A DNA stretch of 64,000 bases. Origin: Bordetella pseudohinzii. Its GTDB lineage: Bacteria > Pseudomonadota > Gammaproteobacteria > Burkholderiales > Burkholderiaceae_B. Positions 30,690 to 36,511 of the stretch are shown piece after piece. The notes below the pieces were generated by a model that was given only the letters and a program-made list of their open reading frames with translations, was not told where the DNA came from and did not search any database. The stretch covers positions 372,001-436,000 of the forward strand of contig NZ_JHEP02000002.1 in assembly GCF_000657795.2 (NCBI RefSeq), in the 5' to 3' direction. Made by a program: the position numbers and the translations under genes. How positions within the stretch are numbered: the first letter of the stretch is position 1; each line of letters opens with the position of its first letter.

Positions 30690-31058
30690 TCAGTCGGGAA
30701 ACTTGCGGATTTCCTTGACGCGGTTGGTCTCGTCGACGAGGACCACCTTGGGCTTGTGCCGGGCCGAGTCTTCTTCCGACATCGGGCCATAGGTGCAGAT
30801 GATCATCAGGTCGCCCACCTGGGCGCGGCGCGCCGCGGCCCCGTTGAGCGAAATGGCGCCGCTGCCGCGGGCCGCCTTGATGATATAGGTGTCGAAGCGC
30901 TCGCCATTGGTGACGTTGTAGAGCTCGATGCGCTCGAACTCTCGCATGCCGGCTGCGTCCAGCAGGTCTTCGTCGATGCCGCAAGAGCCTTCGTAGTGGA
31001 GGTCGGCTTCGGTGACCGTGACGCGGTGCAGCTTTGCACGCAGCATGATGCGTTGCAT
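30690..31058 (-). CDS. panD: Aspartate 1-decarboxylase precursor
   Basis: A 122-residue PanD, which decarboxylates aspartate to beta-alanine for pantothenate and CoA synthesis. The self-cleavage site that generates the pyruvoyl group is G24-S25 in HYEGSCGID. Conserved [13 protein letters not shown] and [18 protein letters not shown] segments are present, and length is standard. AGGAA lies before the ATG. It is divergent from the gdx gene and shares its 212-base upstream region; the reductase gene follows on the same strand. Confidence 0.97.
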
Positions 31059-31141
31059 AAAAAAATTCCTGGGTATGCGGGCCGGACCGCGAATGTTGCC
31101 GTGCCGCCCGAAGGGACGACCGCGGCCAGGAAAATTCCGGC

Positions 31142-31171
31142 TTGGCTCCTGGCCGACCGCTATTTTATAAT
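31142..31171 (+). promoter_or_regulatory. Probable sigma-70 promoter of gdx
   Basis: TTGGCT (31142-31147) and a perfect TATAAT (31166-31171) are separated by 18 bases. The predicted start of transcription, about 31178, coincides with the first stem of the riboswitch-like element. Confidence 0.72.
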
Positions 31172-31177
31172 TTTTGA

Positions 31178-31227
31178 GCCCCGGGACGACCCGGGGTCCA
31201 CCGCGACATCCGGGGACGGCCCCCTGG
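31178..31227 (+). promoter_or_regulatory. Guanidine-II (mini-ykkC) riboswitch candidate
   Basis: Two short GC-rich hairpins in tandem, each closed by an ACGR tetraloop, the defining architecture of guanidine-II/mini-ykkC RNAs. Hairpin 1 (31179-31196) is a perfect seven-pair CCCCGGG/CCCGGGG stem with loop ACGA (31186-31189). Hairpin 2 (31210-31227) has a GGGG/CCCC stem with loop ACGG (31216-31219) and outer CC/GG pairs. The element lies between a strong promoter and the ribosome site of a gdx/sugE gene, the classical target. Free guanidine would pair the two loops and raise expression, by family knowledge. No intrinsic terminator is seen, so translational control is more likely. Confidence 0.88.
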
Positions 31228-31270
31228 CCTGGCCGCCTTGCCTGCCAGCCAAGCAACAGGGAGCATCACC

Positions 31271-31588
31271 ATGACCTGGATCATCCTCGTCCTCGCCGGC
31301 CTCTTTGAAGTCGTTTGGGCGGTCGGTCTCAAATACACCCACGGTTTCACGCGCCTATGGCCCTCCGTCATCACGGTGGCGGGCATGATCGTGAGCTTCT
31401 GGCTGCTGGCCACCGCCATGAAAAGCCTGCCGCTGGGCACCGCTTACGCCGTCTGGGTCGGCATCGGCACCATCGGCGCCTTCGTGGCCGGCATCGTGCT
31501 GTTTGGCGAAGCCCTGAGCGGCCTGCGCGTGGTCAGCGTGCTGCTTATCGTCGCGGGCCTGATCGGCCTGAAGCTGGCCAGCGGCTGA
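31271..31588 (+). CDS. gdx: Guanidinium exporter Gdx (SugE), SMR family
   Basis: A 105-residue small multidrug resistance-type protein with four membrane helices, which as an antiparallel dimer exchanges guanidinium for protons. The central glutamate is E13 ([19 protein letters not shown]), and Gdx-subtype residues W16, S42, Y59 and W62 ([11 protein letters not shown]) are all present, which separates it from EmrE-type pumps. AGGGAG lies 7 bases before the ATG. It is transcribed from its own promoter and preceded by a guanidine-II riboswitch candidate. Confidence 0.95.
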
Positions 31589-31592
31589 GGCC

Positions 31593-32468
31593 TCAAAAAT
31601 CCAGTTCGACCTCGGCGCTGTCGCCCACGCGCAGCGTCGCCCCGCCCCGCGTGTCCACGATGCCGTTCTGGCCGAAGACGACGCCGATCTCCAGCTGGCG
31701 GTAAGCCGCCAGCGTCAGGCCCGGCTCCTGCCGGGGCACGGCGGTCGACTGGTCGACGTCCGGGACGCTGCAGCGGGTGCAGGGCTTGACCAGGGCCACG
31801 CGCATATGGCCGAAATCCACAGTGACGGTCGCGTCTTCTTCGAAGGCGGCCCAATCCTCGCCTTCGAGCACGATGTTCGGACGGAAACGATCCATGGGCA
31901 CGGGCTCGACGCCCTTGGCGGCCAGGCGCTGGTTCAGGTCGTCCAGCGACGCCTGGTTGGCCACCAATAGCGGGAAGCCGTCGGCAAAGCCAAAGAAATG
32001 GTCGCCATCGAAAGCGTCCGCCGCCTCGGGATGGCGCTCGCGCCAGCGCGAGACCCACTCTTCGCGCGCCGGACGCCGGGCCTCGCGGTCCACCTTCATG
32101 AGCCGGCAAGGCTCGCCCAGGAAGCGGCTCAGCCAATCGGCGAGCGCGGCGCTTTCGGCGCGGGCCGGCACCATATCGCGCCAGACCTCCACGGTTTCCA
32201 GCGTTTCGGCCAACTGGCTGCCATCCAACGGCACCTCGATATCGTCCATGTCGGGCGCGCTCAGATGCAGGGCGGAGTCGGTCAGCGCCGTATGGATAAG
32301 CGCCATGCGCGGCCATTGGCGTTGCGTCATGAACTGACCCGCCGCGGTCACGATCATCCAGCGGCGGTCATGGGCCAGGCCGGCGCGATCCACCCGGCTG
32401 TGGGCAAGGTCGATGCCATGGCATGACTTGATGGGATAGATATGCAGGCTGCGAACAGTAAGCGACAT
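31593..32468 (-). CDS. MOSC-domain (YcbX/mARC-like) protein
   Basis: A 291-residue protein with an N-terminal MOSC-N beta-barrel (LHIYPIKSCHGIDLAHSRVDRAGLAHDRRWMIV) and a C-terminal MOSC domain containing VKPCTRCSVPDVD (C230, C233), the molybdenum-cofactor cysteine region of YcbX and mARC reductases that reduce N-hydroxylated compounds. Unlike E. coli YcbX it has no C-terminal ferredoxin domain. It converges on gdx with only 4 bases between stops. ATG at 32468 begins the conserved MSLTVRSLHIYPIKS. Confidence 0.92.
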   Translation of the reverse strand: MSLTVRSLHIYPIKSCHGIDLAHSRVDRAGLAHDRRWMIVTAAGQFMTQRQWPRMALIHTALTDSALHLSAPDMDDIEVPLDGSQLAETLETVEVWRDMVPARAESAALADWLSRFLGEPCRLMKVDREARRPAREEWVSRWRERHPEAADAFDGDHFFGFADGFPLLVANQASLDDLNQRLAAKGVEPVPMDRFRPNIVLEGEDWAAFEEDATVTVDFGHMRVALVKPCTRCSVPDVDQSTAVPRQEPGLTLAAYRQLEIGVVFGQNGIVDTRGGATLRVGDSAEVELDF

Positions 32469-32565
32469 GATGGCTGACGGACCGGCGAATTGACCGGGCA
32501 AGCATACCAGAGGGTCATGGAGCCAGAGCGGCCTGATTCATGGTACCAGCGCACACGTTGCGACG

Positions 32566-32632: not shown

Positions 32633-33559
32633 TCATCGCTCGACCAGCTTGAGCGCGTCCAGCGGCGTGACGGCCTTGAAGGCCTTGCGCGTGGCGATAT
32701 GCTCGGGCCGGGGATCCAGCCCGTACTTGGGCGGATTGAGCGTGTTCTCCATGCTGTTGTAGACCATGAAGACATTGGATCTCGGCCACGGCGAGATATT
32801 GCTGTTCGAGCCGTGCATGGTGTTGCAGTCGAAGAACACCACCGATCCGGCCGGCGCCATCATGGTGCGTATGCCGCCCTGCTCGGCCAGCAATTGCAGG
32901 CTCACCGGGTCGGGCACGCCATATTCCTGCTTTTTGAGCGAGTGCTTGTAGTGCTCGCGCGGGGTCTCGCCCACGCAGGAAATGAACTGTCGGTGCGAAC
33001 CGGGCACCAGCATCAGGGGGCCATTGGTTTCGTTGTTGTCCGACAGCAGCACCGAGCAGCTCAGGGCGCGCATGGCGGGCATGCCGTCCTCGACGTGCCA
33101 GGTCTCGAAGTCGGAGTGCCAATAGAACTCCTTGCCCTTGAAGCCCGGCTTCATATTGGCGCGCGACTGATGGATATAGACCTCGGAACCCAGGATCTGG
33201 CGCGCCACATTGGCCACGCGAGGGTCGCGCGACAGGCGGGCCAGGATGGGACTGAGCACATGCACCATGAAGATGGAGCGCACGGCATTGCTGCCCGGCT
33301 CGGTGATGGCCTCTTCGCGCCGCACGATGGCGGGGTCGCGCGTCATGCGTTCGACCTCGGCCAGCAGCGCGGCCACTTCTTCGGCCGAGAAGAGGTTCTC
33401 CATCAGGAGAAAGCCGTCGTTCTCGTATGACTGCAGTTGCTCGGATGTCAGCGCGTCGGCATAGCTGCCCCCGCCATAGACCACCGGATCCTGACGCGCG
33501 ATGATGGCTGCGGCGCGGTCTGTCCGCGACGCATACGGGTCCTGCGCAGTGGAAATCAT
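32633..33559 (-). CDS. ectD: Ectoine hydroxylase
   Basis: A 308-residue non-heme Fe(II)/2-oxoglutarate dioxygenase of the PhyH family that turns ectoine into 5-hydroxyectoine. The EctD signature FYWHSDFETWHVEDGMP spans 145-161; the iron ligands are H148, D150 and H249 (TMHGSN). The N-terminal PYASR and VYGGG segments are also typical. It is the last gene of the ect operon, 17 bases after ectC, and ends before a strong terminator. Its presence indicates hydroxyectoine production for osmotic and heat stress. Confidence 0.97.
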   Translation of the reverse strand: MISTAQDPYASRTDRAAAIIARQDPVVYGGGSYADALTSEQLQSYENDGFLLMENLFSAEEVAALLAEVERMTRDPAIVRREEAITEPGSNAVRSIFMVHVLSPILARLSRDPRVANVARQILGSEVYIHQSRANMKPGFKGKEFYWHSDFETWHVEDGMPAMRALSCSVLLSDNNETNGPLMLVPGSHRQFISCVGETPREHYKHSLKKQEYGVPDPVSLQLLAEQGGIRTMMAPAGSVVFFDCNTMHGSNSNISPWPRSNVFMVYNSMENTLNPPKYGLDPRPEHIATRKAFKAVTPLDALKLVER

Positions 33560-33576
33560 CGTCAGCCTCCTATCGT

Positions 33577-33975
33577 TCAGGCCGCCTCGGCCTCGGGCAA
33601 GGCATAGACGCCGTCGGCGTCATGCACTTCCTGGCCGGTCAGCGGCGGGTTGAACACGCAGATCACGCGCAGCGGCTCCTTGCCGCCGCACAGCCAGTGT
33701 TCGTCGTGCTCGTTCAGGGCGTAGACCACGCCCGGTCCCAGTTCGTAGCGCTTGCCGTCGGCGATCGTCTCGATAGAGCCATCGCCCTCGATGCACCACA
33801 CCGCTTCAAGATGGTTCTTGTAGTGGATATGGGTGCGGGTTCCCGGGAAAATGGTGGTCTCGTGGAACGAGAAACCCATGTTGTCCTTCTTGAGCAGCAC
33901 GCGGCGGCTCATCCAGGTATCGGTGCGCACTTCGTCGGGGGTTCCGATCACATCTTTGACGTTGCGGACGATCAT
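33577..33975 (-). CDS. ectC: Ectoine synthase
   Basis: A 132-residue cupin enzyme that cyclises N-gamma-acetyl-diaminobutyrate to ectoine. The N terminus MIVRNVKDVIGT and the cupin strands ETTIFPGTRTHIHYKNHLEAVWCIEG and HDEHWLCGG carry the conserved metal and substrate residues of EctC. Length is standard. The start overlaps the ectB stop by one base (TAATG), so translation is coupled. Confidence 0.98.
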   Translation of the reverse strand: MIVRNVKDVIGTPDEVRTDTWMSRRVLLKKDNMGFSFHETTIFPGTRTHIHYKNHLEAVWCIEGDGSIETIADGKRYELGPGVVYALNEHDEHWLCGGKEPLRVICVFNPPLTGQEVHDADGVYALPEAEAA

Positions 33976-35279
33976 TAGCGTTTACCTCCAAAATTGAGAA
34001 CACGGGCCGAGGACTGCTTCTGGCCCAGGGCTTCGGCGACGCTGGCCTCGATCACATCCAGGCCGCGGGCGAGAAGCTCATCCTCGATGGTCAGGGCGGG
34101 CAGCAGCTTGAGCACTTCGTCATGCGCGCCCGAGGTCTCGATCACCACGCCGCGCTCGAAGGCCTTGCGGGCGATCTCGTTGGCCAGTTCCGGGGTGGTG
34201 GTGGCCACCAGCCCCTGGATCAGGCCGCGGCCGCGCACGGCCAGGCCGGCGTTGGGATAGCTGTGCGCCAGGTTCTCGAGCCAGTCGCGCACGACGCGCT
34301 CCTTGCGCTGCACCTCGTTGGAGAAGGCATCGCTGGCCCAGTAGGTATCCAGCGCCTCGGCGGCCGTCACGAAAGCGAGGTTGTTGCCGCGGAAGGTGCC
34401 GCTATGCGCGCCCGGCTTCCAGATGTCGAGCTCGGGCTTCATCAGCACCAGCGACATGGGCAGCCCGAAGCCGGAAAGCGACTTGGACAGGGTGATGATG
34501 TCGGGGCGGATACCGGCCGACTCAAAGCTGAAGAAGCTGCCGGTGCGGCCGCAACCCACCTGGATGTCATCGACGATGAGCAGCATGTCATGCCGGCGGC
34601 ACAGCTTTTCCAGCTCCTTGAGCCAGCGCAGCGTGGCGACATTGACACCACCCTCGCCCTGCACCGTCTCGACAATCACGCCGGCGGGTTTGTCCAGGCC
34701 GCTGCTGGGGTCTTCCAGCATGCGCTCCAGATAAGCGATGGTGTCGACGTCGGGCCCGAAATACCCGTCATAGGGCATGAACGTGGTATTGGCCAATGCA
34801 TAGCCGGCGGCGTCGCGGAATTTCACGTTGGCGGTGGCCGACAGCGAACCGCCGCTGACGCCATGAAAACCGTGGGTGAAGGAAATGATGTTGGGGCGAC
34901 CCTTGACCTGGCGCGCGATCTTCAGCGCCGCTTCCACCGCGTTGGTGCCGGTGGGGCCGGTGAACTGCAGGGTGTACTTCCAGTTGCGCGGCTTGAGCAG
35001 CACACGCTCGAAAGTCTCGAGAAAGCGCTTTTTCGCGCTGGTGGCCATGTCCAGGCCGTGCACCACGCCGTCGGCGGCCAGGTACTCCAGCAGTTTTTCC
35101 TTGAAGACGGGATTGTTGTGGCCGTAGTTGAGCGTGCCTGCGCCACTGAAGAAGTCGATGTACTCACGGCCTTCTTCATCTATCAGCAAAGACCCGCGAG
35201 CCTGGCTGAATATCACCGGAAAGGACCGGATGTAGCCGCGCACTTCGGACTCCATCCGGTCAAAAATCTTCAAATCCAT
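33975..35279 (-). CDS. ectB: L-2,4-diaminobutyrate transaminase
   Basis: A 434-residue class III PLP aminotransferase making L-2,4-diaminobutyrate from aspartate semialdehyde and glutamate. It begins with the EctB-typical MDLKIFDRMESEVRGYIRSFP. The PLP lysine is K266 (TLSKSLSGFGLP), and the aspartate of IVDDIQVGCGRTG contacts the cofactor. AGGGAGGAT lies before the ATG. A 117-base gap with a small hairpin separates it from ectA; ectC follows with one-base overlap. Confidence 0.97.
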   Translation of the reverse strand: MDLKIFDRMESEVRGYIRSFPVIFSQARGSLLIDEEGREYIDFFSGAGTLNYGHNNPVFKEKLLEYLAADGVVHGLDMATSAKKRFLETFERVLLKPRNWKYTLQFTGPTGTNAVEAALKIARQVKGRPNIISFTHGFHGVSGGSLSATANVKFRDAAGYALANTTFMPYDGYFGPDVDTIAYLERMLEDPSSGLDKPAGVIVETVQGEGGVNVATLRWLKELEKLCRRHDMLLIVDDIQVGCGRTGSFFSFESAGIRPDIITLSKSLSGFGLPMSLVLMKPELDIWKPGAHSGTFRGNNLAFVTAAEALDTYWASDAFSNEVQRKERVVRDWLENLAHSYPNAGLAVRGRGLIQGLVATTTPELANEIARKAFERGVVIETSGAHDEVLKLLPALTIEDELLARGLDVIEASVAEALGQKQSSARVLNFGGKR

Positions 35280-35396
35280 GTGATCCTCCCTATCTGTAGT
35301 TGAGGGACGACAAGTCCCAGGCCGCCCCCTTGCGGGACCGGCTGGACAAGCATCCAGAGGTGTTGCAGGACCGCGCGGCCCCTGCCCCGCTAAGGC

Positions 35397-35969
35397 TTAG
35401 TGGGGCACCGGCGCAAACGGCCCTATCTTCAACAACATCTCGTCGTCATGGTCCGCACCGCCAAACACCTGCCGGTCGAAATACGGCTGTTCGGAGATGT
35501 GGGCGCCCAATTCGGCGGCCAAGCCGGCGAAGGTACGGCGCGAGGCCTGGTTGTCAGGCCCCACGGTGGTTTCGAGATGGCGAACCTGACTGAGCGCGTC
35601 GCGTCGCAGCAGCGCGTTCAGCATGGCGCGGGCCAGTTTCTGGCCACGCGCGCTTTCATGCACCGCGACCTGCCAGACGAACAAGACGTCAGGCCGGGTC
35701 GGCGGCTGATATGCGGAGATAAACCCATCGATGCGCCCGCCGGCGCTCTCGGCCACCACGCAGGTGGCGCTGTGATGCTCGCACAGGAGCAGATAGGCAT
35801 AGAGCGAATTGAGGTCCAGCGGCGGGCAGTCTGCGATCAGCCGGTGGATGGCAGGGCCATCGGCCAGGCGCGGGGCCCGCATCTGATGGCTCTGTGCTTG
35901 AGGGGCCGCGCCGGGCGCGGCCGTGTGAGGGGAAAACGTAGCGAGTGTCTGTGTTTCGATATTTCTCAT
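35397..35969 (-). CDS. ectA: L-2,4-diaminobutyrate acetyltransferase
   Basis: A 190-residue GNAT acetyltransferase acting between EctB and EctC. The CoA-binding region [21 protein letters not shown] and the EctA-typical [16 protein letters not shown] and [14 protein letters not shown] segments are clear. The first 30 residues are a low-complexity extension before RAPRLADG. The start overlaps the ectR stop by 4 bases, tying synthesis to the regulator gene. Confidence 0.96.
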
Positions 35970-36511
35970 ACAACCAACCCCGATTCAGGCGGCGCGCCGC
36001 CCGTCGGGACCTCCAGAATGGGTGAGGCAGGGTCACCATGGGCGTCGGCCACATGTCCCTCCTCTTCCATCAGGGCCACGATGCGCTCCAGCGAGAGCGT
36101 GATCGTGGCCTGCTCCAGTTCGGGCAGCGCATTGAGCGCGTCCGCCAGATGCTTCTGCAAGGGCGAAGGCGCCTGGGACGCCAGCGTGCGGCCGGCGTCG
36201 GTGGCGGTGACAAACACGATGCGGCGGTCCTCGCGGCCGCGCTCGCGGCGGACCAGCCCCTTGTCTTCCAGGCGGTCGAGGATGCCGACCACCGTGCTCG
36301 GGCTGACATGGATTTCGCGGCTGATCGCGGTGGCCGTCATCGGGCCGTTGCGGATAACCGTGCGCAGGCACATCAGCTGCGGCGCAGTGATGTGGCTGAC
36401 CGCGGCGAGCTGACGCGAATGCAGGGCGATCGAGCGCGTGATGCGGCGCAGGGCGCGCAGGATGCGCAGGTCGTACTGCTGTGAGGGTTCCGTCGTGCTG
36501 ACGCTGTTCAT
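35966..36511 (-). CDS. ectR: MarR-family regulator of ectoine genes (EctR)
   Basis: A 181-residue MarR-family winged-helix repressor. The core includes [65 protein letters not shown]. It is the first gene of ectR-ectABCD with a 4-base overlap into ectA, the arrangement described for EctR1 in halotolerant proteobacteria, so autoregulation of the operon is likely. An inverted-repeat-like AT-rich segment lies between the -10 and its ATG. No strong ribosome site is seen. Confidence 0.9.

Follow-up and report, generated by a model that had tools for sequence, protein, structure and literature searches.

The leader of gdx in the window (the whole 64,000-nucleotide stretch of Bordetella pseudohinzii DNA analyzed here) appears to be a guanidine-II riboswitch that activates the translation of a Gdx guanidinium exporter, through an arrangement that extends from a promoter at the first hairpin (P1) to release of the Shine–Dalgarno (SD) sequence. 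We place the probability of this reading at roughly 0.8. Specifically, without guanidine the sequence CCCUG, which runs from the P2 3′ strand into the bases that follow it, would pair with CAGGG of the SD, and the resulting blocking helix, capped by an additional hairpin (P3), would keep ribosomes off the message. Two guanidinium ions, expected from the class to bind cooperatively, would stabilize a kissing-loop complex of P1 and P2 that takes the P2 3′ strand, whereupon the blocking helix would open, leaving the SD free and allowing the exporter to be made. As guanidine stabilizes P2 in this scheme, it should free the SD, which corresponds to a translational ON switch. We infer guanidine binding, loop kissing, the transcription start and the direction of switching from the sequence, and regard the window leader as a clean guanidine-II instance with a readable switching part.

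With respect to the aptamer, direct reading confirmed the two tandem hairpins with ACGA and ACGG loops that had been described in the original prediction. P1 spans 31178–31197 on the forward strand (strands 31178–31185 and 31190–31197, loop ACGA at 31186–31189), and is separated by a 14-nt linker (31198–31211, +) from P2 at 31212–31223 (+; strands 31212–31215 and 31220–31223, loop ACGG at 31216–31219). The first stem, which had been called a perfect seven-pair GC palindrome, indeed contains seven G–C pairs together with one outer G–U pair, and P2 consists of four G–C pairs. The covariance-model search proposed with the original prediction was positive, and it supports both the guanidine-II assignment and these boundaries. 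In a cmscan run over the whole window, the Guanidine-II model RF01068 matched 31178–31224 (+) at 40.4 bits, above its cut-off of 32 (E = 0.00014 when 4227 Rfam families are run over 64 kb), and this was the only Rfam match above cut-off in the window. Across the 4,538,520-base genome, where its E value is 2.3e-6, no other RF01068 match passed the cut-off either, a second one of 21.9 bits appearing only when E values up to 0.1 were admitted; the Guanidine-I and Guanidine-III models had no match in the same genome. The available text of PMC5486947 defines the class by two GC-rich hairpins with ACGR tetraloops, and the window RNA resembles it in its two GC hairpins, its ACGA and ACGG loops, its 14-nt linker, its place in the 5′ leader of gdx and the lack of any terminator found there. 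The aptamer also lies upstream of a guanidine exporter gene, which begins 47 nt past P2. Taken together, these observations support membership of the known guanidine-II (mini-ykkC) class, for which guanidine is described as stabilizing the P1–P2 complex (available text of PMC5486947 and PMC7544219); guanidine binding by the window RNA itself is predicted.

The gene that follows, gdx (sugE; 31271–31588, +, ATG to TGA), encodes a 105-residue protein (P0001) of the SMR family that is predicted to function as a Gdx guanidinium exporter, as had been proposed, with the proton-coupled transport expected of that subtype. This assignment is supported by the NCBI SugE equivalog model NF008512 (149.6 bits against a cut-off of 126), by a match to Pfam PF00893 and by the best solved relative, 6wk5, which is Gdx-Clo (PDB 6WK5; PMC7695847, available text). 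The alignment with Gdx-Clo covers residues 1–104 and retains all five substrate-site residues at their positions (E13, W16, S42, Y59 and W62), the remainder showing ordinary sequence divergence. The earlier description of these as "all Gdx-type residues" holds insofar as all five are present in P0001, but only W16 is specific to Gdx. According to the available text of PMC7695847, W16 is conserved in Gdx and replaced by Gly or Ala in Qac proteins, and is the sole discriminator between the two among the five, whereas E13, S42, Y59 and W62 are shared by SMR proteins in general. The one further SMR gene in the genome (L112) is 41% identical, carries A16 and scores 72.2 bits against the SugE cut-off of 126.

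In terms of genomic context, gdx is flanked by a divergent panD, encoding aspartate 1-decarboxylase (30690–31058, −; TIGR00223, 170.7 bits against a cut-off of 106), and by a convergent MOSC-domain gene (31593–32501, −; Pfam MOSC_N 118.2 bits and MOSC 68.6 bits, with no NCBIfam match). The MOSC gene was present at all 16 gdx loci searched, and panD at 10 of the 16. Beyond it, an ectoine cluster occupies 32633–36511 of the window (−), with ectD, ectC, ectB and ectA above their NCBIfam cut-offs and a MarR-family regulator gene adjoining.

A chance match in a GC-rich leader deserves consideration, as the motif is small, GC-rich palindromes are easily made, and the leader folds with an energy that is ordinary for its composition (z = −0.30 for 31177–31300 relative to shuffled sequence). 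The values for 31178–31223 (z = −0.11) and 31212–31275 (z = 0.48) are not unusual either. Moreover, one related genome (G036) holds an RF01068 match of 33.4 bits at an unexpected place, 288 nt upstream of an open reading frame of the sodium/calcium exchanger family (L138, 1501–1546; PF01699), which may be fortuitous, as may other values near the cut-off. The window match, however, scores 40.4 bits, has no rival above cut-off in 4.54 Mb and sits directly upstream of the expected gene, and comparison with relatives contradicts coincidence. Two ACGR hairpins within 150 nt were found in 66 of 83 gdx leaders of the family (stems of at least 3 pairs; 81 matches of the family search plus G200 and G201, with L232, cut by a contig end, counted as a miss), and at 63 of 80 named loci when stems of at least 4 pairs were required or 66 of 80 with at least 3. 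We consider coincidence to be exceedingly improbable.

Comparison with closer relatives also indicates that RF01068 overlooks much of this lineage, which changes the counts and not the concepts. The best named gdx relatives returned were three Achromobacter loci at 82% identity, in a listing from which the window's own genome, or genomes very close to it, may be missing. A gdx gene of at least 75% identity was found in 11 of 15 genomes of the window's genus; its leader passes the RF01068 cut-off in four of the 11 (G000, G132, G200 and G201), carries two ACGR hairpins at longer spacing in five more (G113, G148, G068, G197 and G163), retains a single ACGR hairpin, P2, in G176 and has two ACAG loops in G036. 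We defined the lineage as 31 leaders, comprising these 11, 16 from the related genera g4 and g16, that of G050 and the three named Achromobacter leaders. Only 4 of the 31 pass the RF01068 cut-off, and 25 of the 27 that are missed nonetheless have two ACGR hairpins, including all 16 of g4 and g16, genera with no member among the 58 genomes with an RF01068 match. Loop-to-loop spacing is 46–51 nt in these 16 leaders compared with 30 nt in the window, and this longer P1–P2 spacing is the likely reason that the model misses them.

Loss and decay among the relatives bear on whether the window leader might itself be a relic in decay that has lost its response to guanidine. In addition to the single hairpin of G176, the gdx genes of G005 and G047 (L197 and L199) keep a TATAAT promoter ahead of a leader without a recognizable ACGR hairpin pair. 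In G092 (L253), panD adjoins the MOSC gene; the interval between the two contains neither a gdx match nor a GGAC[AG][AG]CC core, and a promoter-like TATATT remains. The window, by contrast, keeps both hairpins, both loops, the promoter and the SD, and its score is well above cut-off, and we regard decay as very unlikely. Retention of the riboswitch–gdx pair suggests selection. The original prediction had gone further in stating that the element shows this organism to meet free guanidine, which overreaches, since exposure cannot be shown from sequence. One further relative, G188, had no match for gdx or panD; a candidate of 21.4 bits in that genome (L142) was set aside, as no ACGR hairpin pair could be seen by eye on the strand printed.

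Upstream of the aptamer, the TATAAT promoter that had been noted ahead of the first stem is present at 31166–31171, as part of a sigma-70-type promoter TTGGCT-18-TATAAT (31142–31171, +) that matches at 10 of 12 positions and was the only one found in 30900–31700 (mean of 0.2 in shuffles). A gap of just 6 nt separates TATAAT from P1, and this geometry recurs in the lineage: 30 of its 31 leaders have a TATAAT ahead of them, which in 29 of these 30 lies 13–15 nt upstream of the P1 loop (19 nt in G050). Transcription therefore very likely starts at or beside P1, to judge from promoter geometry. The reported lack of a terminator hairpin also holds, as the search returned no terminator-like site within the leader and a single candidate, at 31142–31156, that overlaps the promoter.

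In terms of the switching part, our folds point to the SD region CAGGGAG (31257–31263, +) and to a candidate anti-SD, CCCUG (31222–31226, +), which joins the last bases of the P2 3′ strand to the next 3 nt and emerges from folds of three fragments and from partner-swap tests. Ligand-free minimum-energy folds form P1, lack P2 and pair CCCUG with CAGGG at 31257–31261. In the fold of 31177–31275, the SD bases 31259–31261 are unpaired with probabilities of 0.01, 0.00 and 0.01, and these rise to 0.53, 0.05 and 0.41 when P1 and P2 are enforced, at a cost of 2.1–3.9 kcal/mol across the three fragment lengths. The SD is thus only partly freed, with base 31260 unpaired at 0.04–0.10 in the three fragments; these values come from ViennaRNA, whose model does not include the loop–loop contact. 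This apparently mutually exclusive pairing of P2 and the anti-SD, together with the swap tests below, supports without proving the earlier suggestion that control is probably exerted at translation.

Between P2 and the start codon lies P3 (31224–31248, +), a feature absent from the earlier description, in which CUGGC and GCCAG form 5 pairs around a 15-nt loop, other pairings also being possible. A stem of at least 5 pairs occurs at this location in all 31 lineage leaders, with a mean best stem score of 19.4 versus 13.0 ± 0.6 (maximum 14.3) for 200 mononucleotide shuffles, a comparison that counts related leaders as independent. The window has one of the weakest P3 hairpins of the lineage. The P2 loop lies 55 nt before the ATG in the window and 46–56 nt (median 51) before the start in the 29 lineage leaders with two cores, and 61 nt in G176, which has P2 only. 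The corresponding distance in 41 other family leaders is 23–45 nt (median 31), counted up to where the protein match begins, a point that in some leaders is at least one codon past the start codon. The long distance in the window is explained by P3, the extra hairpin that separates P2 from the SD.

Consistent with a functional pairing, anti-SD and SD partners of the lineage match each other better than swapped partners do. Of the 31 leaders in the lineage, 29 were usable in this test, as were 41 of the 55 outside it, the rest lacking two GGAC[AG][AG]CC cores; once identical anti-SD/SD pairs had been merged, 27 and 39 distinct leaders remained, respectively. In the lineage, the pairing energy of the own partners was reached in 6 of 5000 permutations, and in 22 of 20,000 with a second leader set. 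With swaps confined within genera, 807 of 20,000 reached it, a much weaker signal which implies that part of the complementarity reflects shared descent. Some lineage leaders pair poorly (G036, −1.2 kcal/mol; L003, −2.9; G118, −3.0), and the rest of the family displayed no excess in the same test (1969 of 5000). RNAalifold on the aligned P2–ATG segments recovered only P2, and neither P3 nor an anti-SD helix, from an alignment that misplaces P3 in several rows. Overall, the anti-SD complementarity is likely to represent an expression platform specific to this lineage, as judged from these folds and comparisons.

The proposed platform shares its principle with known guanidine-II systems. For Gloeobacter violaceus, a stem that overlaps both P2 and the ribosome-binding site has been suggested (PMC5486947, available text); the window would follow the same switching principle and adds the cap hairpin. 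In Pseudomonas aeruginosa, guanidine-dependent initiation has been measured (PMC9561414, available text), and the likeness there lies in an SMR exporter gene that is switched ON at translation, the ON direction being our inference for the window. The blocker of the SD differs, in that flanking bases are proposed in P. aeruginosa according to the available text of PMC9561414, whereas in the window this role is likely to fall to the P2 3′ strand together with what follows it. This precedent nonetheless leaves a less probable, though by no means negligible, explanation in which a genuine aptamer acts through a different switching helix, such as a P0 in which flanking bases pair with the SD, or by altering the stability of the mRNA or the access of Rho to it. 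The P. aeruginosa P0, formed by 5′ and 3′ flanking sequences, is described as sequestering the SD, and by our reading of the numbering two of the four anti-SD bases mutated there fall in the linker (PMC9561414, available text); in addition, bases of the P2 5′ strand also pair with the beginning of the coding sequence in our folds that extend into gdx. A transcription start at P1, however, leaves little room for a 5′-flank helix of the P. aeruginosa type, with almost no 5′ flank before P1 under the conserved geometry of 6 nt from TATAAT. Nor do the swap controls reveal any excess of own-partner pairing with the SD for the linker (4937 of 5000) or the bases before P1 (1934 of 5000), and the P1 3′ strand shows nothing as well (1117 of 5000). 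We therefore favor sequestration of the SD by the P2 3′ strand.

A variant of the aptamer was encountered in the gdx leader of G036 (L119, reverse strand), where direct reading reveals two intact stems in the place of the guanidine-II hairpins, each capped by an ACAG loop. Its P2 carries a change on both sides, from GGGG/CCCC to GAGG/CCUC, its SD looks weak, and its minimum-energy fold keeps P1 and pairs the P2 region otherwise. Such ACAG hairpins were found in 1 of the 83 family leaders, that of G036, and in 0 of the 80 named loci. This leader may be the product of coordinated loss; that it is a relative of guanidine-II whose ligand has changed seems improbable. When 268 family genomes were searched for a pattern of two GGACAGCC cores, 58 had matches, which we judged to be chance because a reversed control pattern matched similarly often (assessed by eye and not summed); its allowed gap of 10–40 is too short for G036 itself, and the search therefore does not bear on the ACAG variant. 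A further elaboration is seen among the named Achromobacter loci, two of which have no third hairpin between P1 and P2; the leader of Achromobacter xylosoxidans (L002) contains one at this location, GCCGG-ACGG-CCGGT, with its loop 74 nt before gdx.
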